Part shown: piece after piece, positions 5,577 to 21,980 of the stretch
How positions within the stretch are numbered: the stretch's first letter is position 1
Layout of the letters: every line of letters begins with the position of its first letter
Source of the DNA: Acetobacteraceae bacterium
Lineage (GTDB): Bacteria > Pseudomonadota > Alphaproteobacteria > Acetobacterales > Acetobacteraceae
Direction of reading: 5' to 3'
NCBI GenBank assembly: GCA_947476855.1
Contig: CANJSR010000017.1
Location: 1 to 23,523 of the forward strand
DNA: 23,523 nt
The notes under the pieces: model-generated
The model's input: only the letters and a program-made list of their open reading frames with translations
Told to the model about the DNA's origin: nothing
Database searches by the model: none
Translations under genes and position numbers: made by a program

Positions 5577-8500
5577 TCAGAATTTCAGCGACATGACCAG
5601 GGACCCGCCATGAGCGGTCAGGTTGCCGCCATACTCGCCTTCGTACATCAGGCGGACATCCAGCATCCCCCCGGTATAGAGCTGCACGCCCGCCGACACC
5701 CGGCCGACGATCCGGTCGATCGGCACCGCGGTCGAGAAACCGCCAACCCCGGCGGGCGCGCTGACCAGCCGTCCGGTCTGCTGCCACTGGTCGGTGCTCA
5801 GCACGCTCACGCCCGCGCTGACAAAGGGGCGCAGCGTCATGGAATCGTCCAGCGCGATCCGGCCGCCGACCTCCAGCATCGGGGTCAGCATGGCGGTCGT
5901 CTGCGAGGCGCTGTTCACCGAGAGATTGAGCACGCCGCCCCCGCTTTCCCGGTAGGCGCCGGTGCGGACATGGATCGTGCTGAGGCTGAGGGTCGGGCGC
6001 AGGTAGAACTCTTCCCGCCCGATCGTGTAGCTCGCGCGCAGCAGCAGCCCGAGATTGGCGGTGTCGGGATTGCCCTTGGCGACGGCGCCGAAGCCGGGCA
6101 GCGTGATGACGCGGGAGGTATCGAACTGTCCCGCCCCGCCAAAGGCCGCGGCGCCGAACAGCCAGGGCCCGGTCTGGTATTTCACCGTCAGGGCCGCGAA
6201 ACCCGCCTGGCCCTTGCCGGAATTGAGCTGGTCCTCACTCGACAGGCGGCTGCTTTCGTAGGCCAGCGACCCGCCGACAAACCAGCCCGCGCCGACCGCC
6301 TGCTGGCCGCCGATCTGCCAGGTTGAGGAGCTCAGCCGGTAGCTGGTCACGCCGTTGCCGCTGTCCTGGCCGGCGGTGCGGCCGGTGATCCGCAGCCAGG
6401 CGCAGGAGCCTTCGGTGAGCATCGCCGTAGTGCCCTGGAACTCGGGGCAACTCAGGGTGGCGTTGGCGAAGTTCTGGGCCGCGGCCATGCCACGCGCGCC
6501 GGGGGCGAAGGTGGAATCGGGCGACAGTTGCCGCAGTTGCGCCGCGTAGGCGGTCGCGCCCCCCGCATCGGCGGTATTGCCCAGCAGGGCGAACAGCGGG
6601 GCGAGCGCGGCGTTCCCGCCCGCGTCCCAGGCGGCCTGCAGGTGGTTCGCCGCGGCCGTCCGGCTCTCGGGCAGGTTGTAGCCCGGGGGAGTGAAATCGG
6701 CCCCCGTCGCGGTGACCGAGAAGGTATTGGCCGAACGGGTCACGCCGTAGCTGAACAGGGCCGATGGCTCCCCGGTCAGGCCGCCGGAGACCGTGCCGGT
6801 CACACTGAAGACCGGCAGGGCGATGTTCGGCAGGACGGTGGTCAGGACGGGCCGGATGCGGCCGGCCAGGGCGGCGTCGCCCTGGATCGTCAGGACATCG
6901 TTCCGCCGGCCGGAGAAATCCGCGTCGAAGGCCAGGATGCCCGACGCGGTCTGGGACAGGTTGCCGGTGATCGTGCCCGCGCTGAACGCGCCGCTCCGCC
7001 CGACCGCCAGGACGCCGGCGTTGACGACATTGGCCGTACTGGCGATCACGCCGTTGTAGTTGCCGTTGTTGGTGACCGTGCCGGTGCCGGCGCCGCCGTT
7101 CAGGTGAACGTCTCCGGTCAGGGTGCCGTTGTTGGTCACGTTCAGCGTGGCGACGCCGCTGTAGTTGATCGCCAGGCCCGACAACGCGGAGACACTGCCG
7201 GTCGACCCGATGGTCACGTTGTTCGCGGTCGTGCCGCTGTCGACCCAGATGCCGAAGCCGTTCGACCCAGCGCCGCCGCTGAGCGCGCCGTTGACGGTGA
7301 TGTCGACGAAGTTGTTGTTGGACCCGCCGCCCGTCGTCAGCCCGGAGGACTGTGCGAAGATGCCGACGGCGTTGGCGCCGGACGTGGTGATCGACCCGCC
7401 CGACAGGGTGATCCGCAGCGCGCCCGCCGATCCGTTGGCACTGGCGCTACCCGTGGTGCCGACAAACAGCGTATTGCCGGAGGCCAGCAGGCCGCCGCCG
7501 CCGCCGATCGACTGCGCCAGGATACCGAAGGCGCCGGCCCCCGACGTGTTGATCGTGCCGTCGACGTTGATCGTCACCTGCCCGCCCACGCCATTCCCGG
7601 TGCCGCTGCCGGAGGCCCGCTGCACCGTCATCGTCTGGGTGGGGAAGCCGGATATGCCGCCGCCACCGCCGATCGACTGGGCGACGATCGCGTGGGAGCC
7701 TCCGCCCGTGGTCGTGATCCGGCTGCCGGCGGACAGCGTGAGGTTCACGTCCTGCCCCCAGCTATCGCCGGTCGGGGAGCCCTGCGCGCCCAACGTGTTG
7801 GTGACATTCGTATTGTTCGGCGCGGTGAAGCCGAAGCCGCCGCCGCCGCCGATGCTCTGCGCCAGGATGCCATAGGCATTCTGGCCCGAGGTCGCGATCG
7901 TCAGCACCGCCGGCACCGTCTGGGTGCTCGACAGGCCGATCGTGACCGGTCCGCCGGTTCCCGATGATCCGCTGTTGCCGCCGACATTCAGGTTCACCTG
8001 CCCGGTGATCGGCCCAAGCTCATCGCTGAGGCTGCTGCCCGTGCCGCCGGTGCCGCCGCCGCCGCCGATCGATTGCACGATGATGGCCGCCGCCGCGTCG
8101 CCCAGCGTGGTGACCGATCCCGTGCCGGTCAGGTTGACCGCGCCGCCATTGCCGGCCGATCCGCCGCCGCCCGCATAGCCGCCGCCGATGGACATGCCGG
8201 GGAAGGTCGTGCCGTCCAAAGTGGTCGAACCCGGGGAGCCATCAGCTCCATGCCCGCCGCCGCCGCCAACGCTCTGCGCCAGCAGGCCGAAGGCGCCATA
8301 GCCATAGGTGTTGCTCGCCCCCGTCGAGGGATCGGTGACGGTCTGGCCGGTGGAGATCGTGCTGCCGGCGTTCAGCGAGACCGTGACCGTGCCTCCGTTG
8401 CCGCCCGCCCCGCCCGAGCCGCCGATCGCGAAGTTCAGCGCCGCGATCGCGCCCGCCGTGTTGGACACCGAGGTGCCGCCCTTGCCGCCGCCGCCGCCGA

Positions 8501-11500
8501 CGCTCTGCGCGAAGACGCCCTGTGCCCAGTCGCCGCTTGTGGTCACGCTGCCCGCGTTCGTGACGTTCACGCCCCCACCCTCTCCCGCAGCACCGCCCTT
8601 GCCGCCGAGGGAAACGGTGAAGCCAAATTTCAGGGGGACGTTCTTCTCGACGATGTCGGAGATGAACTCCCGCGTGCCGATCAGGATGCTGACGGGGTTG
8701 TCGGCCGAGGCTTCGGCGCCGGCCGAACCGGTCAGGCCGCCGCCGCCGCCGACGCTCTGCACGAACACGCCAGTCGAATCGCCGCCGGATGTCAGCACGC
8801 TGCCTTGGACGGTGGCCGAGGCCGATCCGCCATTGCCGCCGCTGCCCCCGGTGCCGCCCCAGTTGAAGGTGCCGGAGAAGGTGGGCTGAACCGATCCGTT
8901 TGAGCACGGCGGGCAGCCAACCGAGCCGCCGAGATTGACCGAGCCGCCCTGGCTCGTGCCGCCGCCGCCGCCGATGCTCTGCACCACGATGGCGGGCGCG
9001 CCGGAGCCGTAGGTGCGGAGCGAACTGCCGGCATAGAGCGTCGCGCTCGCGGTGCCGCCGACCGCGCCAGGCGCGCCGACGCCGCCCACGGCGACGCCGA
9101 GGGTGCCGGTCCAGGTGGCGCCGAAAGCCTCGGTGGTCGTGGTGCCGAAGCCGCCATTGCCGCCGCCGCCGGCGATCGACTGGACCAGGACCGCGTTGGC
9201 GTAGTCGCCATAGGTCGTGACCGAGGCGGTGCCGGCGGCGACGCCGTTCACGCCGCCGATCTCGGCCTTGGCGGTGCCGCCGGGGTCGGCGCTGCCGCCG
9301 CTCCCGCCGACCGCGACGGCGATGTCGGCGGAAATGGTCTGCGTGCTGGTGGCCGTGGCGATGCGGCCATAGGACAGAGTGGCGGCCATGGCGCTGGAAT
9401 CACCGCCGCTGCCGCCGCCGCCGCTGATCGACTGGACCTTGAGCCCGTGCGCGCCCTGGCCCTGGGTGGTGACCTTGCTGCCATTGGTCAGCGCGACCGA
9501 AGCCGGACCGCCACCACCGCCCGAGCCGCCGCTGCCACCGACGGATGTCGTGACGCTCATGCTGTACTGGTTGCCGGTCTCGGGGCTGGGGATCGCCAGC
9601 GTCAGGGCATTGGCCGCCGCCGATCCGCCCACGCCGCCGCCGCCGCCGATGCTCTGCACGACCACGCCGAAGGAATCGACCGGCAGGGTGTTGGACGGCG
9701 CGGTAACCTGGGAGATCGCGCCGCCGGTGCTGACCGTCACGCCCGACAGGGTGGCCGATGCCGCACCGCCGCCCCCGCCGCCGCCGCCGCTGCCGCCGAC
9801 GCCCACCGCCGCGCCGAAGCCGGCGCTGACCGAGTAGCCATAGCCCGCGCCGCCGGTGCCGCCGCCGCCGCCTACGCTGTGGACGACGATGCCGGCTGAC
9901 TTGGTATCCTGCGTGGTGATGGTCCCGCCCGTCGCGCTCAACGTGACCGCCCCGGCACTGCCCCCGTCGCCGCCCGACCCGCCGATCGCGACCGAGACGA
10001 CCACGCCTGTCGAGGTCGCGTCGCCCGCATTGCCGCCGCCGCCGCCGATCGACTGCGCCACCAGGCCATGCGCGACCCCGCCGGATGTGGCGATGTTGCC
10101 CGATGTGTTGACGGTGGTCTGGCCGCCATTGCCGCCGCCGCCGCCCGCCCCGCCGATCGCGGTGAAGATGCCGCCGCTGGTCCCACCATTGCCGCCGCCA
10201 CCGCCGACCGACTGCGCCAGCACGCCCAGGGCGTAGTCGCCTCCGGTGGTGATCGTGCCGGAATGGGTGACGTTGACCGGCCCACCGTTGGACGCGAAGG
10301 CCGCGTCGCCGCCGACGCCCGAGAAATTGCCGCCGCTGCCGCCGTTGCCGCTGCCGCCGCCGACGGCCTGGGCGATGATGCCGATGGAACCCTGGCCAGC
10401 CGTCGTGATGGTGCCCGTGTTGGTGACGCTCGCAGTGCCGACCGTGCCGCTGGCGCCGCTGTCCCCGCCCGAACCGTAGATGCCCTTCTGGCTGGAGCCG
10501 CCGGCCCCGCTCTGCCCGGTCATGGTCTGGACGAAGATGCCGGGGGCGTAGTTGCCGCCCGTGGTGATGGAGCCGTTATTGGTCACGGTGACGGTGCCGC
10601 TGTTGCCGCTGGTCCCTCCGGTGCCGGCGATGCCGACGAAGCCGGAGAAGCCGATCGTGCCGGCCGCCCCGCCTTCCCCGCCCAGGCTGCGGGCGAAGAC
10701 GCCGGCCGCGTCGTCTCCCGCGGTCGAGACGCTGGCGCCGCTGTTGACGGTGACCGTGACGTTGTAGCCTCCGCCGCCCGCCCCGCCATCGCTGCCGGCC
10801 CCGCCCAGGCCCGCCCAAAGCTCTCCGCCCGACGCCCCCGGCCCGCCGATCGAGGAGGCGATGATGCCGTGCGGCGGGGAGGTGGAGGAGGATGGCGCGC
10901 CGCTCGCCGCGCCGGTGGTGACGACGGCGGTCCCGCTGTCCAGGGTCACGGTCACCGGTGCCCCCTGCCCGCCGGTGCCGCCATCGCCGGCGAAGCCCGC
11001 GGCGGAGGGCGCATTGCTGCTGGAGCCGATGTTGCCGCCGCGCCCGCCGACGCCGCCGGCCGCGGTGGCGACGATTCCGGGGGCCTCGGCGCCCGTGGTG
11101 GAGACCCGGCTGGTGTTCTGCAGGTGGACCGCGAGCGGCCCGGAATTGCCGCCGCCGCCGCCGGTGCCGCCATAGCTGGAGAGGCCGAACTTGTCGTAGT
11201 CGGTGCCGGTGCCGCCCAGGCCCCCCTGGCTGATGGCCAGGATGCCAGGCGCGCCGCCCCCGGTGGTGGAGACGACCGTCGAGCCGGCCAGGGTGACGCC
11301 GACCGCGTTCGTGGTGTTGGTCGGGTAGCCGGTGCTGCCGCCATCGCCGCCGCTGCTGCTATCCTGCCCGATGCCGCCATTGCCGCCGACTCCGCCCGTC
11401 GCGCGGGCGATGATGCCGGCGACCTGGGTGCCGGTTGCCGTGACATTGGCGCTGGTGGCGCTGACCGTGACCCCGTTGGTCGCGCCGCCGAACCCGCCAT

Positions 11501-12629
11501 GCCCCTGGTTGTAGCCCGTGCCGCCATTGCCGCCGAGGGCGAAGGCGCCGACCGCGGCCGCGACTCCATCGCCCGGCGAACCGCCGCCCTGGATGCCCAG
11601 GCCGAGGTTCACCGTCCCGCCCGCGTTCAGGGTCACGCCGACCGCGCCGACCGCGCCGCCAGCACCGCCGTCGCCAAGGTCGCCATTGACCGACGGCGTT
11701 CCGTTGCCGCCGACGCCCTGTGCGTAGATCGCATAAAGCTCGGTCGCGGAGGTGCCGGTCATGGTGGGGGACACCGCGATCGGCGCGTTGTTGGTGAAGC
11801 TCACCGCGCCTGCGGGCCCGCCCGACTGGCCGTCATTGCCGACGCCGGCGTTGCCGCCCCGGGATTGTGCCCCGACCGCCCAGAGCGCGCTTTGGATCGA
11901 CAGGCCGCTGATCGTGATGGCGGCGTTGTTGGTCACGGTCACGGCGCCGCCCGCGGCGCCATTCGTGCCGTTCTGGCTGCCGTATTGCGGATTGCCGTTG
12001 CTGTCCGGGCCGCGGCTTGTGGTGCCGCCGCCGGTGCCGCCGGTGCTGCGGGCGAAGACGACCGACGTCGTGGGCACCGAGAACGTCCCGTTCAGGATGA
12101 CGGCCGCGTTGTTGGTGAAGGTGATCGATCCGGCGGTCCCGGCCCCGGCGCCGCCCTGGTCGTTGTCGGTCCCGGTGTAGTTTCCGCCATCGCCGCCCAC
12201 GTTTGTCAGGAAGATCGTATCGATCCCATAGCCGAGTGAACCGCCATTCCCGGTTTGGGTGACGGGGGCGGCGTTGATGAAGGTCAGGTTGCCGGAATTG
12301 CCGCCCGCGGTGGGGGCGTCGTGCTTGTCGGAGCTGTTGGTCCCGCCCCAGCCCGACACGGACCAGGTCAGCGCCTGCGTCCCATTCGCGCCCGATGTCA
12401 GATTGGTGGCCGGCAGGGGCACCGTGATCGCGCCGTTGTTCGTCACGGTATAGGAATTGGTGTCCGTCACCGAGGCCTGCGCGGTCGTCGTGTAGGACCC
12501 CGCCGGCACCTGGCACACGAACGAAGACTCACACACATACGGTGCCAGGATCGCCGCTCGGCTGCCCTGCGACAGCACCAGGCCGAACGCCATGAGAGCC
12601 AGCCCCTTTGTCGCGCGTGTCAAAGGCAT
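5577..12629 (-). CDS. Giant glycine-rich repeat autotransporter (type Va) with C-terminal beta-barrel
   Basis: The protein has 2350 residues. A signal peptide (about 1-25, ending GSRA) is followed by a CESSFVC cysteine pair near residue 33. Roughly 27 degenerate repeats of ~62 residues run from about 190 to 1800, each pairing a beta-strand/turn segment (VTNNGSITT-like) with A-x-G-[IV]-x-[AV]-Q-S-[IV]-G5. Residues ~1800-1960 are a non-glycine beta-helix (NNGTLTGDVHLN, TASGILAFDADFSG). A helical linker precedes a ~275-residue barrel from about CAWLRITGRT (~2073). The C-terminus MSLKF ends in Phe, the usual outer-membrane beta-signal. A second cysteine pair (SCPEF and EGSCAW) sits at the barrel entrance. 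GGGAG at 12638-12642 lies 8 nt before the ATG. The passenger is probably a long beta-solenoid used in adhesion or aggregation (inferred). The long Pro/Ala/Arg-rich open frames on the other strand are reflections of its Gly codons. Confidence 0.93.
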   Translation of the reverse strand: MPLTRATKGLALMAFGLVLSQGSRAAILAPYVCESSFVCQVPAGSYTTTAQASVTDTNSYTVTNNGAITVPLPATNLTSGANGTQALTWSVSGWGGTNSSDKHDAPTAGGNSGNLTFINAAPVTQTGNGGSLGYGIDTIFLTNVGGDGGNYTGTDNDQGGAGAGTAGSITFTNNAAVILNGTFSVPTTSVVFARSTGGTGGGTTSRGPDSNGNPQYGSQNGTNGAAGGAVTVTNNAAITISGLSIQSALWAVGAQSRGGNAGVGNDGQSGGPAGAVSFTNNAPIAVSPTMTGTSATELYAIYAQGVGGNGTPSVNGDLGDGGAGGAVGAVGVTLNAGGTVNLGLGIQGGGSPGDGVAAAVGAFALGGNGGTGYNQGHGGFGGATNGVTVSATSANVTATGTQVAGIIARATGGVGGNGGIGQDSSSGGDGGSTGYPTNTTNAVGVTLAGSTVVSTTGGGAPGILAISQGGLGGTGTDYDKFGLSSYGGTGGGGGNSGPLAVHLQNTSRVSTTGAEAPGIVATAAGGVGGRGGNIGSSSNAPSAAGFAGDGGTGGQGAPVTVTLDSGTAVVTTGAASGAPSSSTSPPHGIIASSIGGPGASGGELWAGLGGAGSDGGAGGGGYNVTVTVNSGASVSTAGDDAAGVFARSLGGEGGAAGTIGFSGFVGIAGTGGTSGNSGTVTVTNNGSITTGGNYAPGIFVQTMTGQSGAGGSSQKGIYGSGGDSGASGTVGTASVTNTGTITTAGQGSIGIIAQAVGGGSGNGGSGGNFSGVGGDAAFASNGGPVNVTHSGTITTGGDYALGVLAQSVGGGGGNGGTSGGIFTAIGGAGGGGGNGGQTTVNTSGNIATSGGVAHGLVAQSIGGGGGNAGDATSTGVVVSVAIGGSGGDGGSAGAVTLSATGGTITTQDTKSAGIVVHSVGGGGGTGGAGYGYSVSAGFGAAVGVGGSGGGGGGGGAASATLSGVTVSTGGAISQVTAPSNTLPVDSFGVVVQSIGGGGGVGGSAAANALTLAIPSPETGNQYSMSVTTSVGGSGGSGGGGGPASVALTNGSKVTTQGQGAHGLKVQSISGGGGSGGDSSAMAATLSYGRIATATSTQTISADIAVAVGGSGGSADPGGTAKAEIGGVNGVAAGTASVTTYGDYANAVLVQSIAGGGGNGGFGTTTTEAFGATWTGTLGVAVGGVGAPGAVGGTASATLYAGSSLRTYGSGAPAIVVQSIGGGGGTSQGGSVNLGGSVGCPPCSNGSVQPTFSGTFNWGGTGGSGGNGGSASATVQGSVLTSGGDSTGVFVQSVGGGGGLTGSAGAEASADNPVSILIGTREFISDIVEKNVPLKFGFTVSLGGKGGAAGEGGGVNVTNAGSVTTSGDWAQGVFAQSVGGGGGKGGTSVSNTAGAIAALNFAIGGSGGAGGNGGTVTVSLNAGSTISTGQTVTDPSTGASNTYGYGAFGLLAQSVGGGGGHGADGSPGSTTLDGTTFPGMSIGGGYAGGGGSAGNGGAVNLTGTGSVTTLGDAAAAIIVQSIGGGGGTGGTGSSLSDELGPITGQVNLNVGGNSGSSGTGGPVTIGLSSTQTVPAVLTIATSGQNAYGILAQSIGGGGGFGFTAPNNTNVTNTLGAQGSPTGDSWGQDVNLTLSAGSRITTTGGGSHAIVAQSIGGGGGISGFPTQTMTVQRASGSGTGNGVGGQVTINVDGTINTSGAGAFGILAQSIGGGGGLLASGNTLFVGTTGSASANGSAGALRITLSGGSITTSGANAVGIFAQSSGLTTGGGSNNNFVDITVNGALSGGAGSNGFGIWVDSGTTANNVTIGSTGSVSALSGLAINYSGVATLNVTNNGTLTGDVHLNGGAGTGTVTNNGNYNGVIASTANVVNAGVLAVGRSGAFSAGTITGNLSQTASGILAFDADFSGRRNDVLTIQGDAALAGRIRPVLTTVLPNIALPVFSVTGTVSGGLTGEPSALFSYGVTRSANTFSVTATGADFTPPGYNLPESRTAAANHLQAAWDAGGNAALAPLFALLGNTADAGGATAYAAQLRQLSPDSTFAPGARGMAAAQNFANATLSCPEFQGTTAMLTEGSCAWLRITGRTAGQDSGNGVTSYRLSSSTWQIGGQQAVGAGWFVGGSLAYESSRLSSEDQLNSGKGQAGFAALTVKYQTGPWLFGAAAFGGAGQFDTSRVITLPGFGAVAKGNPDTANLGLLLRASYTIGREEFYLRPTLSLSTIHVRTGAYRESGGGVLNLSVNSASQTTAMLTPMLEVGGRIALDDSMTLRPFVSAGVSVLSTDQWQQTGRLVSAPAGVGGFSTAVPIDRIVGRVSAGVQLYTGGMLDVRLMYEGEYGGNLTAHGGSLVMSLKF
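7230..12060 (-). repeat. Tandem ~186-bp repeat array encoding the passenger units
   Basis: About 27 units recur at ~186-bp intervals. On the plus strand the most conserved block looks like GCCGCCGCCGCCGATCGACT. Near-identical copies are seen around 7495, 7660, 7840, 8055, 8740, 8955, 9165, 9640, 10040 and 10195. Units beyond about 10500 (protein N-terminal) are degenerate: the Gly5 core reads RSTGG, QSRGG, ISQGG or ATAAGG. Unit length varies with inserts of Gly-rich or Ser/Thr-rich segments. Confidence 0.85.
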
Positions 12630-15914: not shown

Positions 15915-16712
15915 TCAGCCTGTCCGGCGCGCCCGCTTGCGGACCGCGTTCATGCCGAGCAGACCGGTCAGCAGCAGGATGACGCTCGCCGGTTCGGGTA
16001 CCGACCAGTGGGCGGTGTAGTCGTTCACCACCGCGTCGGTGATGGCCGGGTCCCCGAAATTATAAGCCTGCATCAGCACCCGATCCATGTCGGTCGAACC
16101 GTTGATGGTGCTATCGGTGTACGCGACCGCCCAGTTCACCGAGTAGACGAAGCTGTCGCCGGTAAAGGCGATCTGCAGGGTGTTCCAGTCGTCGTAGGCG
16201 ACGGACGCACCCAGATCGACCCAGCCGCCCGAGACATTGGAATCCCAAACCCGGAAGCGCGGCGCGCCGCCATAGTTGGTGAAACCGATGATCGGATAGT
16301 CGGTCACCGCGGTTCCGTCCGACATCACCGCCCACATGTCGGTGCGACGGGAGCCGTTGAGCGCGTCACCCCAGCTTGTGGGGATGAACAGATCGGCCGT
16401 CAGTGTCGATCCCACGCCGCCGGCCAGGTCATAGCCGCGCCCCTGCGTGTTGTAGAATGACGAGGCAAAGGCTCCGCCCCGGTTTGCCACGTTGCCGGAG
16501 GCGGCGATGGCGATGCCCAGGACGTCCGACCGGTTCTGAAACGGCCCCACGTTGGAGAAGCCGGCCGGATCGTAGCGATCGACCGTCCAACCCGTTGGCA
16601 GGGTCGCGTAGTTGGGCATCATCTCGGTCGCCGATGCCGGGGAGGCGATACCGATGGCACCGAGCGATATTGTTGCGGTAAGAATACAAGTTGCGAACAC
16701 CCGCATGTTCAT
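15915..16712 (-). CDS. PEP-CTERM sorting-domain secreted protein
   Basis: The 265-residue protein has a signal peptide (about 1-28, ending ASPASA) and a C-terminal PEP-CTERM module at 238-265: VPEP, a hydrophobic helix (ASVILLLTGLLGMNAV) and a basic tail RKRARR. Such modules are recognised by exosortase, which anchors or releases the protein at the cell surface, usually with exopolysaccharide. The body is rich in Asp, Gly, Asn, Ser and aromatics (WAVMSDGTAVTDYP, GGAPRFRVWDSN, WNTLQIAFTG), reading as a beta-sandwich of lectin or laminin-G type, but I do not recognise a named family. AAAGGAG at 16719-16725, 6 nt before ATG 16712, and the signal peptide fix the start; the frame's upstream extension to 17159 is non-coding in character. 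No exosortase gene is in the window. Confidence 0.9.
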   Translation of the reverse strand: MNMRVFATCILTATISLGAIGIASPASATEMMPNYATLPTGWTVDRYDPAGFSNVGPFQNRSDVLGIAIAASGNVANRGGAFASSFYNTQGRGYDLAGGVGSTLTADLFIPTSWGDALNGSRRTDMWAVMSDGTAVTDYPIIGFTNYGGAPRFRVWDSNVSGGWVDLGASVAYDDWNTLQIAFTGDSFVYSVNWAVAYTDSTINGSTDMDRVLMQAYNFGDPAITDAVVNDYTAHWSVPEPASVILLLTGLLGMNAVRKRARRTG

Positions 16713-16803
16713 TTCCTTCTCCTTTGACTTCAAATTCTGGCCGTTTTTGATTTTTGCCGAGCTTTCTGCTCGATTTGTCGCGATCCGAACCGAGTCAATC
16801 CAA

Positions 16804-16819
16804 TGCAAAATTCGTACCC
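16804..16819 (-). promoter_or_regulatory. Candidate sigma-54 (RpoN) promoter of the PEP-CTERM gene
   Basis: The minus strand reads GGGTACGAATTTTGCA against the RpoN consensus TGGCACGNNNNTTGCA. The -24 GG and -12 GC are exactly 10 nt apart, ACG and TTGCA match, and only two consensus positions differ. The implied start near 16793 leaves a ~80-nt AT-rich leader before ATG 16712. PEP-CTERM genes in other Proteobacteria are known to be controlled by RpoN with the PrsK/PrsR system. Confidence 0.55.
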
Positions 16820-16881
16820 AAACAGATAAATCAAGTAAAACAATCGGTAGCGGCGCCGGCCCCATCAGTGTGCAACCAAGT

Positions 16882-16898
16882 TGTAAGGTTTTCCGACA
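16882..16898. promoter_or_regulatory. Imperfect dyad, candidate enhancer-binding site upstream of the sigma-54 element
   Basis: TGTAAGGTTTTCCGACA has half-site symmetry (TGT at the left end, ACA at the right, with G/C pairing inside) and lies about 63 bp upstream of the -24 element, a usual distance for a sigma-54 activator site. The binding protein is not in the window. Confidence 0.35.
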
Positions 16899-17066
16899 CC
16901 GTACCCCTGCCCATTTTACACCAGGCGAGCGCATGGCGGTCGCGGACACGGCCGGCCGGGCGGCCCTATGACCGCCAGGGCACGGAACGGACATCGATTT
17001 GAAGAAGGCCCGCCAGCGCGGACGAGTGCAGCGCGGAAGCGGGTTCAACCGGCGCGCAAGGCGGTC

Positions 17067-17119
17067 TCTTCCCTCTCCCAACGCCCGCCCCAGCGGGACG
17101 GCGCGTCCGGAGAGGGAGG
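17067..17119 (-). terminator. Compound hairpin downstream of the LivK-type gene
   Basis: CCCTCTCC (17071-17078) pairs with GGAGAGGG (17109-17116), with further partial pairing outside. Nested inside is CCCGC (17084-17088) with GCGGG (17093-17097). It lies just beyond the stop at 17128 on the minus strand. No U-tract follows. Confidence 0.45.
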
Positions 17120-17127
17120 TCGCGGGA

Positions 17128-18342
17128 TCAGCCCTTCTTGGCGACCAGCGGGCAGTCACCCTTGTCGAGCGGGCGGATCACCTCGTCGGCCGGGATCTGG
17201 GCCAGGATCTTGTAGAAGTCCCAGGGGCCCTTCGACTCCTCGGGGGTCTTCACCTGCACCAGCCAGGCGTCGCGGCTCAGGCGGCCGTCTTCGCGGATCT
17301 TGCCGTTCTTCACGACCATGTCGTTGACCGGCATTTCCTTCATCTTCTTGACGACGGCCTTGGCTTCGTCCGTGCCGGCGGCCTGGATCGCCTTCAGGTA
17401 GTGCATCGTGGCGCCGTAGTCGGACAGATGGATGAAGTTCGGCGGCGTGCCGTGCCGTTCCATGAACCGCTTGGAGAAGGCGCGGGTTTCGTCGTTCAGG
17501 TCCCAGTAGCCGAAGTCGGTCACGACCAGCCCGCCCGCGGCCTTCAGGCCGAGCGAACGGAAGTCGTGGATGACGGCGAGCAAGGCGGCGAGGCGGGTGC
17601 CGCCGCGGGTGACGCCGAACTCGGCGGCCTGCTTGACGCTGTTGATGAAGTCACCGCCAGCGTTGGCCAGGCCGATCACCTTGGCGCCGGAGCCCTGGGC
17701 CTGCAGCAGGAAGGCCGAGAAGTCGGAGTTGTTGATCGGCACCCGCGAACCGCCCAGCACCTTGCCGCCGGCTTCCTTGACGAAGCCCGCGGTGTCCCGT
17801 TCCAGCGCATGGCCGAACGCATAGTCGGCCGTCAGGAAGTACCAGGAATCGCCGCCCTGCTTCACCACCGCCTTGCCGGTGCCGGCGGCCAGCGCATAGG
17901 TGTCATAGGTCCAGCCGATGCCGGTCGCGGAGCAGGCCTTGCCGGTGAAGTCGGAGGTGGCGGCGGCGGTGTTCAGCACCACGCGGTTCTTGTCACGCGC
18001 CACGCCCTGGGTCGCCAGCGCCACGGCCGAATTGGCGACCGAGGTGATGACGTCGACCTTTTCCTCGTCGATCCACTTGCGGGAGACGGAGGCGGCGACG
18101 TCCGCCTTGTTCTGGTGATCGGCGGCCACGACCTCGATCTTCTTGCCCAGCACGGTGCCGCCGAAATCCTCGACCGCCATCTGCGTCGCGGTGACGGTGC
18201 CCTTGCCGGTATTGTCGGAATACAGGCCGGTCAGGTCGGTCAGGATGCCAATCTTGACCACGTCGTCGGATACTTGGGCCCGGGCGGGCGTGACGACAGC
18301 GAGCGCCGCGGCAAGCATGCCGGCGAGAGGATAATGCTTCAC
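17128..18342 (-). CDS. Branched-chain amino-acid-type ABC transporter substrate-binding protein (LivK-like), GTG start
   Basis: The 404-residue protein has a signal peptide (1-22, ending TPARA before Gln-Val) and the type I periplasmic-binding fold of the LivJ/LivK group: VVKIGILTDLTGLYSD near 28-43, GTVTATQMAVEDFGG, DHQNKADVAASVSRKWIDEEKVDVI and LNTAAATSDFTG, followed by the C-terminal lobe. Such proteins bind amino acids, amides, urea or aromatic acids in the periplasm and deliver them to an ABC importer. The first codon is GTG (18340-18342), with GGGAG at 18352-18356, 9 nt upstream. No permease or ATPase gene is nearby, so it is an orphan receptor; ligand unknown. Two cysteines (in KACSATG and GDCPLV) could form a disulfide. 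Confidence 0.92.
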   Translation of the reverse strand: MKHYPLAGMLAAALAVVTPARAQVSDDVVKIGILTDLTGLYSDNTGKGTVTATQMAVEDFGGTVLGKKIEVVAADHQNKADVAASVSRKWIDEEKVDVITSVANSAVALATQGVARDKNRVVLNTAAATSDFTGKACSATGIGWTYDTYALAAGTGKAVVKQGGDSWYFLTADYAFGHALERDTAGFVKEAGGKVLGGSRVPINNSDFSAFLLQAQGSGAKVIGLANAGGDFINSVKQAAEFGVTRGGTRLAALLAVIHDFRSLGLKAAGGLVVTDFGYWDLNDETRAFSKRFMERHGTPPNFIHLSDYGATMHYLKAIQAAGTDEAKAVVKKMKEMPVNDMVVKNGKIREDGRLSRDAWLVQVKTPEESKGPWDFYKILAQIPADEVIRPLDKGDCPLVAKKG

Positions 18343-18443: not shown

Positions 18444-18914
18444 TCACGGTGGCAAATGTCGCTCGGCTTCCGGACGAGCCTTCAGTGCCTTGCCTTCCCG
18501 GGTCAGGATTTTGGCCACCCGTTCGGCCGGAAAGCCCAGGTCGAGCAGGCCCGGGCCGGGGTTCGCGACCTCTCGGTAATCGGCAATCAGGCCGTCGCGG
18601 ATGGTCATGATCGACACGCCCTCGAACATCGCCCGCCGGCCCTCGGCGCCGGCCAGTTTCGAAGTAAAGCTGAAGACGTAGCGGGCGTACAGGGTCGTGC
18701 CGTCGAACACCGGCTGGTGCATGTCCCAGCGGAAGTCGCGCGCGTCGCGGTGAAACCAGTCGGTCAGCATCGCGGCGATCCGCGCCCGTCCCTGGAACGC
18801 GCCGTAGAAGACGTCATGGTAGACGCTATCCTCGGCAAACAGGGTGGCGAAGGCGGCGCCGTCGCCGGCTTCGACGTGCCGGCAGAACGCGGTCAGAAGG
18901 GCGGTCGGGTTCAT
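18444..18914 (-). CDS. SnoaL-like / NTF2-fold protein, coupled to the sensor kinase
   Basis: The 156-residue protein reads as a SnoaL-like polyketide-cyclase or ketosteroid-isomerase-fold domain: an N-terminal helix ALLTAFCRHVEAGDGAAFA, LFAEDSVYHDVFYGAFQGRARIAAML, then strands RWDMHQPVFDGTTLYARYVFSF and FEGVSIMTIRDGLIADYREV. This GxGxI-xxM...Y-H-D pattern is common in small proteins whose activity is rarely known. There is no signal peptide. ATG 18914 overlaps the kinase stop (TGA 18913-18911), and GGAGG at 18920-18924 lies 5 nt upstream; an in-frame ATG at 18926 is disfavoured because this Shine-Dalgarno sits between the two. It is the last gene of the regulator-kinase operon, so it should be made with the kinase. 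A catalytic or ligand-binding role in the response is inferred. Confidence 0.85.
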   Translation of the reverse strand: MNPTALLTAFCRHVEAGDGAAFATLFAEDSVYHDVFYGAFQGRARIAAMLTDWFHRDARDFRWDMHQPVFDGTTLYARYVFSFTSKLAGAEGRRAMFEGVSIMTIRDGLIADYREVANPGPGLLDLGFPAERVAKILTREGKALKARPEAERHLPP

Positions 18915-20452
18915 GATTTCCTCCATCCCCGAACGCTGCCCGCGGGGCGGCTGTCTGTCCAGGAGGCCGACCGGGGCAGCGACAGCACCGCGCGCAGCCC
19001 GCCCTCCGGCCGGTTGGTCAGGGTGATGGCGCCGTGATGCGCCTCGGCGATCGCCTGCGCGATGGCCAGGCCCAAGCCCGAGCCTCCGGTTTCCCGGCTG
19101 CGCGACTGTTCCAGGCGGTGGAAGGGTTCGAACACCTTCAGCAGTTCCGCCTCGGGGATCCCTGGCCCGTCGTCGTCGATCACGATGCGCGCGGCCTGGG
19201 GTGTGGCTTCCAGGGAAACCCTGGCCGTCGTCCCGTACTTGATCGCGTTTTCGATCAGGTTGGTGACGACGCGACGCAGGCCGCCGGGCTGGCATTCCAG
19301 CACCAGCGGATCGGCCGGCCGCATCCCGACCGGCATCCCGGCGTCTTCCATGTCATCGACGATCGAGGCCAGCAGGGCGGAGAGGTCGGTGGGCCGCCAG
19401 ATCTCGGGCGCGGTGGTGTCGCGGGCGTATTTCAGGGTCGCGTCGATCATCCCATCCAGCGTGTCGATGCTGGCGAGCATCTTCTCCCGGTCCTCGGAAT
19501 CGGGCTGCGCCTCGATCCGCAGGCGCAGCAGGGTGAGCGGCGTCCTCAGGTCGTGCGACAGGGCGGCCAGCATCGTGGTCCGGTTCGTCAGCAGCCGTTG
19601 CAGGCGCGCTTGCAGGTCGTTGAAGGCATGGGCCGCCTGGCGCATCTCCCGCGTTCCGGCCTCGGCGATCGGGGGGGCGTTGACGTTGCGTCCCAGCCGT
19701 TCGGCGGCATGGGTGACGACGCCCAGGGGCGCGGTCACCCGGCGGACGGCCCAGATGCAGGCGAGGATGACGATCACCGCCATGATCCCCATGGCGATCA
19801 CGAACTGCCAGGAGATCGCGGGCCGGACATCGGGCAGGCCGAGGGAGAAGGTCAGCCACTGTCCGTCGGTGAGTTGGATGGTCACCAGCAGTCGGCGCCA
19901 CAGCCCTGGCCCCGGCGGGCCAGGCATGCCCGGTCCATGCATGCCCGGCGCGTACAGGGACGGCGCGTGCATGGACGGGCGAAGCTGCATCGCGGGGTCC
20001 GGCGGATCGATGTCCCGCATGTCCGGTGGCGGTTGGCGGGGCGCCTTGAGCTGCGCGGCCCCGTTCGGCGGCCGCCGCGGCTTGGCGACGATCACCTGCA
20101 TCCGTTCGGCGAGCCCATCGGGCAACTGGTCGAGCAGATAGTCCCGGATCGGCAGATCGGTGGGGTCCGCCGGTTCGGCCTGGACCGCGGGGGGACGCGG
20201 ACCAATGGCGATCCGCAGCCTCGGGTCGGTCGCCGCGGCGATCAGCCGGTCGCGCCAGTCCGGCGGTGCCTCGTCGATCAGCCGCGCGAGGTTGGCGATG
20301 CGCTGGGCCGCCGCGTAGCCGCCGATCGCCCGCACCGCCTTGGTGCGGTCGGAGGTGTAGATCCAGGCGGCGATCAGATGCGACGCGACCAACCCCGCCA
20401 GCAGGATCAGGATCATCTGGCTGATCAGGGTGTTCGGCCGGAAACGGCTCAT
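18911..20452 (-). CDS. EnvZ-like sensor histidine kinase with Met/His/Pro-rich periplasmic tract
   Basis: The 513-residue protein has TM1 (~11-32), a periplasmic domain (~35-212), TM2 (~214-236), HAMP (~237-290), the H-box ALSHDLRTPLTLLRLR with His300, N-box NLIENAIKYG, G1 DDDGPGIPE and G2 SGLGLAIAQ. All the catalytic boxes are intact, and the H-box matches the EnvZ/RstB type. Residues 154-183 of the periplasmic domain form a Met/His/Pro/Gly-rich tract (PSMHAP, APGMHGPGMPGPPGPG), and 127-153 is Pro/Lys-rich. This region is likely disordered and could bind Cu, Ag or another soft metal; this is inference. ATG 20452 overlaps the regulator's TGA (20451-20449), with no clear Shine-Dalgarno, implying coupling. 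Confidence 0.93.
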   Translation of the reverse strand: MSRFRPNTLISQMILILLAGLVASHLIAAWIYTSDRTKAVRAIGGYAAAQRIANLARLIDEAPPDWRDRLIAAATDPRLRIAIGPRPPAVQAEPADPTDLPIRDYLLDQLPDGLAERMQVIVAKPRRPPNGAAQLKAPRQPPPDMRDIDPPDPAMQLRPSMHAPSLYAPGMHGPGMPGPPGPGLWRRLLVTIQLTDGQWLTFSLGLPDVRPAISWQFVIAMGIMAVIVILACIWAVRRVTAPLGVVTHAAERLGRNVNAPPIAEAGTREMRQAAHAFNDLQARLQRLLTNRTTMLAALSHDLRTPLTLLRLRIEAQPDSEDREKMLASIDTLDGMIDATLKYARDTTAPEIWRPTDLSALLASIVDDMEDAGMPVGMRPADPLVLECQPGGLRRVVTNLIENAIKYGTTARVSLEATPQAARIVIDDDGPGIPEAELLKVFEPFHRLEQSRSRETGGSGLGLAIAQAIAEAHHGAITLTNRPEGGLRAVLSLPRSASWTDSRPAGSVRGWRKS

Positions 20453-21171
20453 GCGGTTTCGACCGCCGGGGTGAACATGTAGCCGCCGCCCCAGATCGTC
20501 TTGATCAGCTTCGGGTCCGCCGCGTCCAGTTCCAGCTTGCGGCGCAGGCGGCTGACCTGGGTGTCGATGCTGCGGTCGAACGCCACCGCCGCCCGCCCGC
20601 GCGCCAGGTCCAGCAACTGCTCCCGGCTGAGCACCCGTTGCGGGCGCTCGACCAGGGCCAGCAGCAGGTCATATTCCCCGGTGCTGAGCGGCACGGTCAC
20701 CCCGTCGGCGCGCAGCAGGTCACGGCTTTCGGTGTCCAGCACCCAGCGGTCGAACTGATAGCGCCGCACCGCCGGGGGCTTGCCGGCGCGGGAGGGGTCG
20801 GAGGGACCCCGGCGCAGCACGGCGCGGATGCGGGCGATGAGTTCGCGGCTGCCGAAGGGCTTGGGCAGATAGTCGTCGGCGCCCATTTCCAGGCCGATGA
20901 CCTTGTCCACCTCCTCCCCCTTCGCCGTCAGCATGATGATCGGCACGTCGCTTTCCGCCCGGACGGCGCGACACAGTGAAAGCCCGTCCTCTCCCGGCAG
21001 CATCAGGTCGAGCAGGATCAGGTCGTAGCGCCCGTCGAGCCGGGCCTTGCGCATCGCCTTGCCGTCGGCGACCGCGGTCGCCCGAAAGCCCTCCCGCCCC
21101 AGGACGCGGGCGACGAGTTCGCGGATTTCGTGATGGTCGTCGACGATCAGGATGTGCGGGTTGGTGTTCAT
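20449..21171 (-). CDS. OmpR/PhoB-family response regulator
   Basis: The 240-residue protein has a receiver domain (1-~120) with acidic pair Asp11-Asp12 (LIVDDHHE), phospho-acceptor Asp55 (LLDLMLPGEDG), Thr82 in MLTAKG and Lys104 (PKPFGSRE), followed by a winged-helix DNA-binding domain ending TIWGGGYMFTP. The partner kinase follows with an ATGA overlap. ATG 21171 is chosen because MNTNPHILIVDD gives a normal regulator N-terminus; a longer frame to 21249 adds non-conserved residues. No Shine-Dalgarno precedes 21171: the upstream minus strand is pyrimidine-rich. Together with a candidate TACACT -10 box at 21214-21219 this leaves only a ~36-nt leader. It probably controls its own operon and the divergent Spy-like gene. 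Confidence 0.93.
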   Translation of the reverse strand: MNTNPHILIVDDHHEIRELVARVLGREGFRATAVADGKAMRKARLDGRYDLILLDLMLPGEDGLSLCRAVRAESDVPIIMLTAKGEEVDKVIGLEMGADDYLPKPFGSRELIARIRAVLRRGPSDPSRAGKPPAVRRYQFDRWVLDTESRDLLRADGVTVPLSTGEYDLLLALVERPQRVLSREQLLDLARGRAAVAFDRSIDTQVSRLRRKLELDAADPKLIKTIWGGGYMFTPAVETA

Positions 21172-21404
21172 GGCGGGAAGGTAGGCGGCCCGAGGCGGGA
21201 AGGGCGCGGAAAAAGTGTAGCAGTGTGTGGCCAGGGGGCGGGCTGACAAACCTTGTCACACTTTCGGGTGAATCCGACAAACCCTGGTCATGGTTGGCGC
21301 GCATAACCTCCTCGTCGGCACAAACGGCCCTCTCCTCCGGACAGGGTCAACCGGCACCGAAAGTCGGTCCCGTCGGGGCCGTTACGGAATACAGGAGTTT
21401 CACA
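21172..21404. promoter_or_regulatory. Divergent control region between response-regulator operon and Spy-like gene
   Basis: Two related sites stand 31 bp apart: TGACAAACCTTGTCA (21244-21258, a perfect 6-bp dyad with 3-nt centre) and CGACAAACCCTGGTCA (21275-21290). The first lies about 25 bp upstream of a minus-strand TACACT -10 candidate (21214-21219); the second overlaps the expected -35 of a plus-strand CATAAC -10 candidate (21302-21307). This fits activation of both promoters by the adjacent OmpR-type regulator. The ~90-nt plus leader is GC-rich with several short dyads. AGGAG at 21393-21397 serves the Spy-like gene. Confidence 0.5.
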
Positions 21405-21980
21405 ATGAGCATCATGACCCGCGCCCTCGCCGTTGCCGCCCTTACCGCCATGGTCGGCGGCGTGGGCTTCAGCGCCAACGCCCAGACCACCCCCGCCGCG
21501 CCGAGCGCCGCCCCGGCCGCTCAGGGCCAGATGGGTGGCCCGATGGGCGGACCCGGCGGCCGCATGCATGGCGGCCATCACGGCCACGCGATGGGTGACC
21601 CGGCCGAACACCTGGGCAAGCTGAAGACCGAGATCGGCATCACCGCGGCGCAGACCGCCGCGTGGGACGCCTATGCCAAGGTGGTGCAGGACACGGCCGC
21701 CAAGATGAAGGCGAGCCACGACGGCATGAACCGCCACGCCTTCATGGAGATGTCGACCGCCGACCGCCTCGCCACCCTGTTGAAGCGCCGGGACGCGCAG
21801 GAGCAGGCCCGGAACGCGGTGAAGACCGCGGCCGAGACGCTGCTGCCGACCCTGGACGACACGCAGAAGGTGCGGGCACTGATGTCGCTGCCGGGTCTCG
21901 CCGGCCCCGGACCGATGATGATGAAGCATCACGCGATGCGGAAAGGCCCGCCCACGGCCGCCCCGACCTCGGTGAACTGA
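21405..21980 (+). CDS. Spy/CpxP-family (LTXXQ) periplasmic protein, Met/His-rich
   Basis: The 191-residue protein has a signal peptide (1-26, ending SANA), then a Gly/Met/His-rich segment (41-64, with GRMHGGHHGHAMG), an LTXXQ-like motif ITAAQ (79-83) followed by long amphipathic helices (AAWDAYAKVVQDTAAKMKA and AEMLLP-type region), a second degenerate motif LDDTQ, and a C-terminal MMMKHHAM tract (171-178). Spy and CpxP are periplasmic chaperone-like helical dimers; the relative ZraP binds zinc. AGGAG 7 nt before ATG 21405 fixes the start. The gene is divergent from the response-regulator operon and has its own terminator, so it is probably a target of that system. Metal binding by the His/Met tracts is inferred. 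Confidence 0.88.
   Translation: MSIMTRALAVAALTAMVGGVGFSANAQTTPAAPSAAPAAQGQMGGPMGGPGGRMHGGHHGHAMGDPAEHLGKLKTEIGITAAQTAAWDAYAKVVQDTAAKMKASHDGMNRHAFMEMSTADRLATLLKRRDAQEQARNAVKTAAETLLPTLDDTQKVRALMSLPGLAGPGPMMMKHHAMRKGPPTAAPTSVN

Follow-up and report, generated by a model that had tools for sequence, protein, structure and literature searches.

The divergent module of regulator, sensor kinase, and exported Spy-like protein found in the window (the whole 23,523-nt stretch of DNA analyzed here, with its closest relative in the Acetobacteraceae) probably acts as a mainly local soft-metal sensing circuit, most likely for Cu(I) and possibly for Ag(I), from an OmpR/EnvZ side-branch. Gene order, operator geometry, Met/His enrichment, the replaceability of the partner fold, and the scarcity of the box elsewhere are read directly from the sequences. 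On a more doubtful extension of this interpretation, in which LTXXQ is one of several interchangeable carriers of a Met-rich segment, some Spy/CpxP-like neighbors of two-component systems would be metal sinks with metal-mediated feedback rather than chaperone-type kinase inhibitors. The module offers a compact, testable system for the role of Spy/CpxP-family proteins beside sensor kinases. An earlier, sequence-only reading had proposed a stress or metal sensor circuit. A metal signal appears to be the best explanation, whereas a Cpx-like stress signal is disfavored, because the LTXXQ protein is replaceable and the regulator is not CpxR-like.

Gene order and distribution of the module

17128..18342, minus strand: ABC substrate-binding protein (Peripla_BP_6 by Pfam), downstream; also in L001, L002, and L143
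18444..18914, minus strand: SnoaL-like (NTF2-fold family) protein, 156 aa (PF12680, SnoaL_2, 69.3 bits; gathering cut-off 27)
18911..20452, minus strand: sensor histidine kinase, 513 aa (Pfam HAMP, HisKA, HATPase_c; predicted fold; relatives)
19907..20047, minus strand: disordered Met/His-rich periplasmic loop of the kinase, residues 136–182 (alignment, pLDDT)
20449..21171, minus strand: OmpR-subfamily response regulator, 240 aa (Pfam Response_reg and Trans_reg_C; NCBIfam; tree)
21405..21980, plus strand: Spy-like LTXXQ-family protein, 191 aa (PF07813, 35.4 bits, gathering cut-off 24.3; alignment; structure model)

The Spy-like gene runs opposite the genes for the regulator, the kinase, and the SnoaL-like protein, which overlap by ATGA at 20449–20452 (regulator/kinase) and 18911–18914 (kinase/SnoaL-like). 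Open reading frames and Pfam assignments bear out the stepwise coupling and the divergent Spy/CpxP-family gene described earlier, and the shared control region postulated between the Spy-like gene and the regulator is supported as well, with the divergent module being kept in relatives. The regulator represents a rare OmpR side-branch, which occurred in 13 of 397 sampled genomes of the family and additionally on Microvirga and Aminobacter plasmids. In each of the 16 relative loci that were read, a divergent ORF encodes a protein that is exported or lies in the membrane. This partner was LTXXQ-type in 11 loci (nine reach the Pfam cut-off, and L145 and L061 fall just below it with 22.7 and 20.2 bits, respectively) and a Met-rich protein without LTXXQ in the other five, which keep the kinase type and the operator. 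Profile matches in L054, L058, L059, and L061 are partly circular, because these sequences were included in the LTXXQ profile alignment; the Pfam scans provide an independent check. Among the OmpR/EnvZ paralogues, by comparison, 15 loci were counted and none had a divergent LTXXQ-type gene; L066 gave no match either but was left out, its upstream sequence extending over only ~230 nt. The divergent LTXXQ order is conserved well beyond chance.

The SnoaL-like gene lay beside the kinase in only three of the 16 loci (L001, L002, and L143; in L002 an 11-nt gap replaces the ATGA overlap), its absence carrying less weight in L059 and L058 with ~430 nt and ~1 kb after the kinase, respectively. Homologues occurred in four other of 200 family genomes. 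It is therefore an add-on, a lineage-specific passenger or accessory, and a four-gene core module with this third coupled gene, as proposed in the sequence-only reading, was rejected. The Peripla_BP_6 gene adjoins SnoaL in the close lineage (L001, L002, L143), and its product is probably outside the circuit.

No copper gene was seen beside the module in the window, where the flanks are Peripla_BP_6 and peptidase M20 according to Pfam, which counts against metal sensing; five of six further window ORFs scanned had no Pfam match. Neighbors in other loci would fit a metal signal: in L054, Spy is followed downstream by a multicopper-oxidase piece, L061 has a second LTXXQ protein, and L060 has an RND efflux gene, which may fit depending on its substrate. 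Seven more distant loci of the class (L100–L106, 57–63% regulator identity) were kept outside the 16. L103 encodes an LTXXQ protein (Pfam, 72.5 bits), L104 one by a weak profile match only (E = 1.6e-4), and L105 and L106 exported EF-hand proteins, while the assessment of L100, L101, and L102 was purely visual, among the matches listed.

Sensor, regulator, and exported partner

The regulator is of the OmpR type, as had been suggested: it shares 50% identity with E. coli OmpR and 41% with CpxR, groups with OmpR and not with CpxR in the tree, and has OmpR as its top NCBIfam family with a score below the cut-off (267.3 vs. 331 bits). The CpxR equivalog cut-off was likewise not reached (168.7 vs. 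341 bits). The earlier description of the kinase as EnvZ-like rather than CpxA-like in its H-box is not clearly borne out for the protein. It agrees with the NCBIfam ranking, in which EnvZ came first with 198.9 bits (cut-off 415) and CpxA scored 161.9 bits (cut-off 486), both far under their cut-offs. However, the pairwise scores of the whole protein were equal (345 and 346), and both the catalytic core alone (296 vs. 261) and a PDB sequence search (123 vs. 98 bits) favored CpxA. Matches in a structural comparison of the whole kinase were kinase cores (range 268–497). Scores for the heavy-metal families TIGR01386/TIGR01387 (CusRS/CopRS/CzcRS) stayed below the cut-offs for the regulator (142 vs. 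279.2 bits) and the kinase (117.3 vs. 292.55 bits), which counts against a metal signal.

The composition of the sensor points toward a metal. The kinase, which starts via the ATGA overlap with the regulator, is composed of TM1, a periplasmic domain, TM2, HAMP, HisKA, and HATPase, and its predicted structure had a mean pLDDT of 42–51 over the ten-residue blocks of residues 131–180. Across 48 kinases, Met and His made up 338 of 1671 residues (20.2%) in the loop, whose bounds we set on the alignment, vs. 88 of 6283 (1.4%) in the remaining periplasmic part, and the loop contained at least three such residues in 47 of them. When no bounds were preset, the 25 consecutive residues of the sensor part richest in Met/His included 4–11 of them in eight kinases of the subfamily, as opposed to 2–6 in the EnvZ paralogues, of which 16 were compared (Mann-Whitney p = 0.0004). 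That the sensor parts of the paralogues also contain some Met/His argues against a metal signal, as do the kinase of L145, with at most two such residues per 25, and that of the sister branch (L096), which is encoded close to a copper chaperone of the PCu(A)C type and has no Met cluster. P0070, with one Met/His residue in the loop, is the same kind of exception as L145.

The Spy-like protein consists of a signal peptide (assigned by eye), a Met/His-rich disordered N-terminal part (~27–65), a helical part (66–161), and a Met/His-rich tail; the helices were predicted with confidence, while residues 1–61 had a pLDDT below 50. In a sequence search of its profile against solved structures, nothing was significant (two matches, E = 0.28 and 0.35), and Foldseek with the model gave no match at E < 0.001. 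Its mature part contains 7.8% Met and 5.4% His. The Met content of the mature divergent product was 4.3–18% in 17 loci including the window, compared with 1.7–3.3% in five other window proteins, which is consistent with a metal-binding role. The L145 partner, with 4.3% Met yet 8% His, is again an exception that speaks against it. Co-variation of Met between kinase loop and partner was not significant and is suggestive only (Spearman 0.49, p = 0.075, n = 14 loci after the near-copies L001, L146, and L147 were dropped).

The divergent control region

21172..21404, no strand: shared divergent control region, 233 nt (sequence)
21216..21233, plus strand: box C, the box in inverted orientation (register in relatives)
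21243..21260, minus strand: box B, TGTGACAAGGTTTGTCAG, tandem half-sites with a ~10-bp period (leave-one-out; same register in relatives)
21276..21292, no strand: box A, degenerate third block (conserved block in a 130-nt listing of 17 sequences)

Box B begins 89 nt ahead of the regulator ATG and was the leave-one-out best site in the whole window (score 22.1). It forms an 11-nt direct repeat with box A (spacing 31), which is close to the putative −10 of the Spy-like gene (CATAAC, 21302–21307, by eye). The inverted box C, ~62 nt before the regulator ATG, overlaps the putative −10 of the regulator operon (TACACT, 21214–21219, by eye); it is weak in the window (9.6) and strong in L060, L061, L144, and L148. 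OmpR-type boxes B and C occurred at a fixed register in seven of seven held-out loci, six of which are independent, since the training set included L060, of which L146 is almost a copy; this supports the proposed metal circuit. Three results count against it: two held-out scores (L149, 11.3; L150, 12.8) were under the maximum of the shuffles (15.5), one paralogue (L063) reached 9.5 at position C, and L098, a more distant locus, scored 20.4 at another register.

Exact box matches in 13 genomes fell inside the module region in 12 of 16 cases, and the circuit therefore looks mainly local. Matches inside the module are, however, expected for a pattern drawn from the module itself, and in three of 14 loci (G670, G672, and G726) the boxes of the module escaped the pattern. 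As the four matches outside the module exceed the single match obtained with the reversed pattern as a control, there may be a few more targets. None of the four (G670:C86, G115:C414, G002:C215, and G001:C231) had a convincing promoter context by eye, and a wider regulon was rejected on these grounds. The G001:C231 site may still be a target, as it is near an exported His-rich ORF, but this ORF runs antisense into a kinase gene.

Proposed circuit, alternatives, and known systems

We propose that metal binding by the kinase takes place on the periplasmic side, chiefly through the disordered Met/His-rich loop, an insertion in the sensor domain, and that the metal-bound kinase would phosphorylate the regulator. 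From boxes A and B, the bound regulator would then activate both of the divergent promoters, whereas box C, lying over the −10 of the regulator operon, may limit autoactivation. The exported Spy-like protein, Met/His-rich at both ends, could bind or buffer the metal, with or without chaperone activity, and by removing it would shut off the kinase indirectly. Somewhat more doubtful is the notion that the selected unit is the local soft-metal circuit, comprising a sensor loop and an exported partner, both of them Met-rich low-complexity metal binders, and a three-box operator, in which LTXXQ would be one of several interchangeable carriers of a Met-rich segment. In this lineage LTXXQ was swapped for other Met-rich proteins while kinase type and operator stayed; the Met-rich loop stayed as well, with L145 as the one exception among the loci read. 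Such partner exchange can separate a metal-sink from a chaperone-inhibitor role, and the operator is defined enough for predicting binding and building a reporter.

A Cpx-like envelope-stress circuit, in which the Spy-like protein would be a chaperone and direct kinase inhibitor titrated off by misfolded proteins, shares with the module the LTXXQ/CpxP-type gene divergent from the regulator. We consider it unlikely, as Met-rich non-LTXXQ proteins replace LTXXQ in 5/16 loci with kinase type and operator kept, the regulator is not CpxR-like, and even in Cpx the affinity of CpxP for CpxA is low according to PMC4755656. Because the LTXXQ fold is replaceable, CpxP-type feedback is unsupported, and with it the earlier suggestion that the Spy-like protein modulates the kinase in the periplasm; in loci that do have LTXXQ, such modulation may yet occur. 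Next in line, and likewise improbable, is a sensor of reactive chlorine or oxidants, with oxidation of the kinase-loop Met as the signal and the Met-rich partner as a sacrificial sink. The partner is Met-rich in nearly every locus, and PMC12503329, which names HprSR as an RCS-sensing system, describes that E. coli Spy is induced by chlorite via BaeSR and that its oxidized Met is repaired by MsrPQ. Met-rich proteins could equally be oxidant sinks, which weakens the case for a metal, but His accompanies Met in many loops and partners, and the nameable neighbors are of the copper/efflux type.

An excess of Met over His suits Cu(I) and Ag(I). Such an excess is seen in most loops and partners, which makes a sensor for Zn, Ni, or Co, in which the LTXXQ protein would act like CnrX, quite improbable. 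Even less credit is due to an ordinary duplicate of OmpR/EnvZ that serves osmotic or pH responses and has an incidental Met content: OmpR is indeed the closest family of the regulator, but the near-identical genome G001 carries a separate OmpR/EnvZ-like pair (L076), and the loci read have their own operator and Met-rich partner.

A literature search, with most subscription papers outside its scope, revealed no description of this module, which is weak evidence. Like E. coli CusRS, a Cu/Ag sensor, the presumed soft-metal circuit has divergent output genes and Met/His clusters in a disordered periplasmic loop of the kinase; in CusS, loss of both the Met and the His clusters stopped cus upregulation, as described in PMC10100754. 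Unlike in CusRS, TIGR01386/TIGR01387 scores are below cut-off, and an exported Met-rich protein takes the place of the CusCFBA pump as output. The alphaproteobacterial OmpR/EnvZ systems agree with the module in the top NCBIfam families of both proteins and in the tree, but form a separate pair in the same genome type (L076), differ in the H-box (GHDLRTPI vs. SHDLRTPL), and lack the divergent LTXXQ gene in the 15 loci. By description, the module can also be likened to the U/Zn/Cu-responsive UzcRS of Caulobacter, another alphaproteobacterial two-component system, whose regulator, according to PMC8963506, switches on numerous genes with secreted or membrane-located products; unlike the module, UzcRS has a large regulon and a different motif (CATTAC-N6-TTAA). 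The likeness to E. coli cpxP-cpxRA, of which the module had been called a mirror, is confined to the layout, in which cpxP runs opposite the genes for an OmpR-family regulator and a kinase, which overlap by 4 nt there, whereas the CpxR and CpxA equivalog cut-offs were not reached. In contrast to cpxP-cpxRA, the module has an OmpR-like regulator, a Met/His loop in the kinase, a replaceable partner fold, a box seldom found elsewhere, and an extra SnoaL gene in its close lineage. The module is thus Cpx-like in its arrangement, with components of another kind.

Layout, kinship and distribution of the module

The four genes proposed by the sequence-only reading, their strands and the two 4-nt overlaps were borne out by the open reading frames and the sequence, and its domain assignments agreed with Pfam. 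The module is real, conserved and unusual in combining a Cpx-like layout with a regulator from an OmpR branch and a CusS-like Met/His-rich sensor loop. The window regulator shares 50% identity with E. coli OmpR, 41% with CpxR and 36% with CusR, and forms one branch within the OmpR group together with seven relatives (tree support 0.89). The kinase had been described as EnvZ-like rather than CpxA-like in its H-box. This agrees with its top NCBIfam family (EnvZ, and OmpR for the regulator, with neither protein reaching the cut-off), but the whole-kinase pairwise scores were equal (EnvZ 345, CpxA 346), and the kinase core (CpxA 296 vs EnvZ 261) and a PDB sequence search favored CpxA, so that the kinship signals for the kinase conflict. 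Kinase identity reaches 98% with Acetobacteraceae bacterium UBA6159 (locus L001) and 82% with L002, a MAG labelled Asaia bogorensis; on this basis we assign the window to the Acetobacteraceae. The genome of L001, G001, also contains a separate OmpR/EnvZ-like pair (L076) with a 56–57% identical regulator and the H-box GHDLRTPI.

Regulator matches were found in 13 of 397 family genomes (14 loci, 72–99% identity; E up to 1e-95) and in 8 of 385 genomes of the class sample (E up to 1e-88; G001 among them, the other seven at 57–63%). Hence, the branch is rare and patchy. Its occurrence on two plasmids (Microvirga sp. VF16 and Aminobacter sp. SR38, 74–75% identity) suggests transfer. Genome G115 carries two diverged Spy/regulator/kinase copies (L058, L059) on different contigs. 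In G198, the L060 module is flanked by an RND efflux gene (PF00873) and by genes resembling conjugation genes by eye (flanks at L060:8196-10421 and below 4600), a setting that suggests a mobile element.

Two other window frames were noted. The ORF at 15915-17159 (-) ends in VPEPASVILLLTGLLGMNAVRKRARR, which we take to resemble a PEP-CTERM sorting signal, and L001:545-1249 has a similar ending, VPEPASAAIIIMGVAGMIGLRRL; a Pfam scan of 15915-16757 gave no match. The 2350-aa open frame at 5577-12629 (-), also without a match in the Pfam scan, may simply run antisense to opposite-strand genes.

Operator boxes in the control region

Seventeen sequences share a common block upstream of the regulator in nearly constant register, with three putative OmpR-type boxes:
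Box A: TGTCAC-N4/5-GTTTGTC type
Box B: start 88–90 nt upstream of the regulator ATG
Box C: inverted, ~62–44 nt upstream of the regulator ATG

Within boxes B and C, half-sites repeat about every 10 bp, the spacing anticipated for a dimer of the OmpR family. Box C overlaps a likely -10 for the regulator operon, whereas a likely -10 for the Spy-like gene is near box A, both promoters being called by eye. With a matrix trained on 7 sequences, the best site within 400 nt coincided with B or C to within 1 nt in 7/7 held-out loci (scores 11.3–23.2); six of these are independent, since L146 hardly differs from L060, a training sequence. Best scores in 15 paralogues were 2.0–9.9, the L063 site (9.5) coinciding with position C. 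For shuffled window sequence, the 95% point was 9.5 and the highest score 15.5, and L149 and L150 are therefore convincing more by position than by score. An earlier leave-one-out test had used a crude two-base block shuffle as control. In L098, which is more distant, a strong site (20.4) occurs in another register. L103 (89 nt before the regulator ATG; score 13.3) and L104 (62 nt; 8.7, below the shuffle 95% point), two further distant loci in which an LTXXQ-type gene is divergent, have a related box at the B and C positions whose half-sites read TGTAAC, perhaps a sister specificity.

The exact box pattern, which failed to find the module's boxes in 3 of 14 loci, gave 16 matches across 13 genomes; the module control region accounts for 12 of these, and the reversed control pattern gave 1. 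Because the pattern was derived from the module, the telling figure is the outside matches (4 vs 1 control), and the circuit is therefore probably mainly local.

The divergent partner and the SnoaL-like gene

Sixteen loci were read, 14 from the family and two from plasmids (L001, L002, L054, L055, L058, L059, L060, L061, L143–L150); not all are independent, as L001 is almost identical to the window and the control region is almost the same in L060, L146 and L147. The predicted four-gene order was retained in part: an LTXXQ-type ORF is divergent from the regulator at 11 of the 16 (L001, L002, L054, L055, L058, L059, L061, L143, L145, L148, L149), but SnoaL is beside the kinase only in L001, L002 and L143. 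Nine of the 11 reached the Pfam cut-off (24.3), with L145 (22.7) and L061 (20.2) slightly below. The divergent products of L060, L146, L147 and L144 are Met-rich with an apparent signal peptide (called by eye) and without LTXXQ; Pfam scans of those from L060, L144 and L147 gave no match, and that of L146 is nearly identical to L060. L150 encodes a 50-aa Met-rich membrane protein with a sub-threshold DUF3309 match. The partner fold is thus replaceable. No LTXXQ match occurred in 15 OmpR/EnvZ paralogue loci with sufficient upstream sequence. In the protein database, 7 of 28 Spy-like rows (contigs of at least 4 kb) matched a kinase row among the best 120 of 6943 in longest-contig size (chance expectation 0.4 over all 71 Spy-like rows with contig), which suggests co-location without proving it. 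Two more distant OmpR-like systems (L105:4618-5205, L106:5748-6383) encode an apparently exported EF-hand protein, not LTXXQ, opposite the regulator, as if the regulator group paired with various exported partners.

A further SnoaL–kinase pair is perhaps on one 11,412-base contig, judged by equal contig size. The kinase–SnoaL overlap is lost in L002, and SnoaL homologues in 4 other family genomes of 200 (E up to 1e-40) included none (0/4) of the 13 genomes with this regulator. SnoaL is an accessory of the close lineage.

Sensor loop, mechanism and known systems

Across 48 kinases, the loop is placed between predicted strands two and three of the sensor domain and contains 338 Met+His in 1671 residues, while the remaining periplasmic part has 88 in 6283, a post hoc ratio with bounds drawn on the Met-rich stretch. 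The unbiased comparison, Met/His in the densest 25 residues, gave 4–11 in 8 subfamily kinases and 2–6 in 16 EnvZ paralogues (p = 0.0004); eight further loci had 2–13 (L145, 2). The loop has low confidence in the structure model. As ATG is the only methionine codon, the enrichment would not be explained by high GC. Two conserved positions, His25 in TM1 (45/48) and Met224 in TM2 (46/48), were given little weight because EnvZ paralogues commonly have a Met in alignment with 224 and several subfamily loci have Ala, Tyr or Leu instead of His25.

Beside the observed anatomy, operator, Met/His pattern and partner replaceability, we propose that a metal, of inferred identity, would be the signal, that the regulator would bind the boxes with a presumed direction of regulation, and that the exported partner would serve as a metal sink. 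The sequence-only reading had envisaged CpxP-style modulation of the kinase by the Spy-like protein. Where LTXXQ is present, this protein may interact specifically with the kinase, but a kinase dependent on a CpxP-like inhibitor is disfavored because the partner fold is replaceable. Beside this Cpx-like role, the strongest rival to the metal circuit is oxidant sensing combined with a Met sink, given that in E. coli Spy Met residues are oxidized by chlorite and repaired by MsrPQ (PMC12503329).

The divergent layout is similar to that of Cpx, but the regulator comes from the OmpR branch instead. UzcRS has a large regulon (PMC8963506), whereas the module circuit is probably mainly local. The precedent for the kinase loop is CusS, which likewise has Met and His clusters in a disordered loop: according to PMC10100754, loss of either the CusS Met triad or the His stretch was largely tolerated and loss of both stopped cus upregulation.
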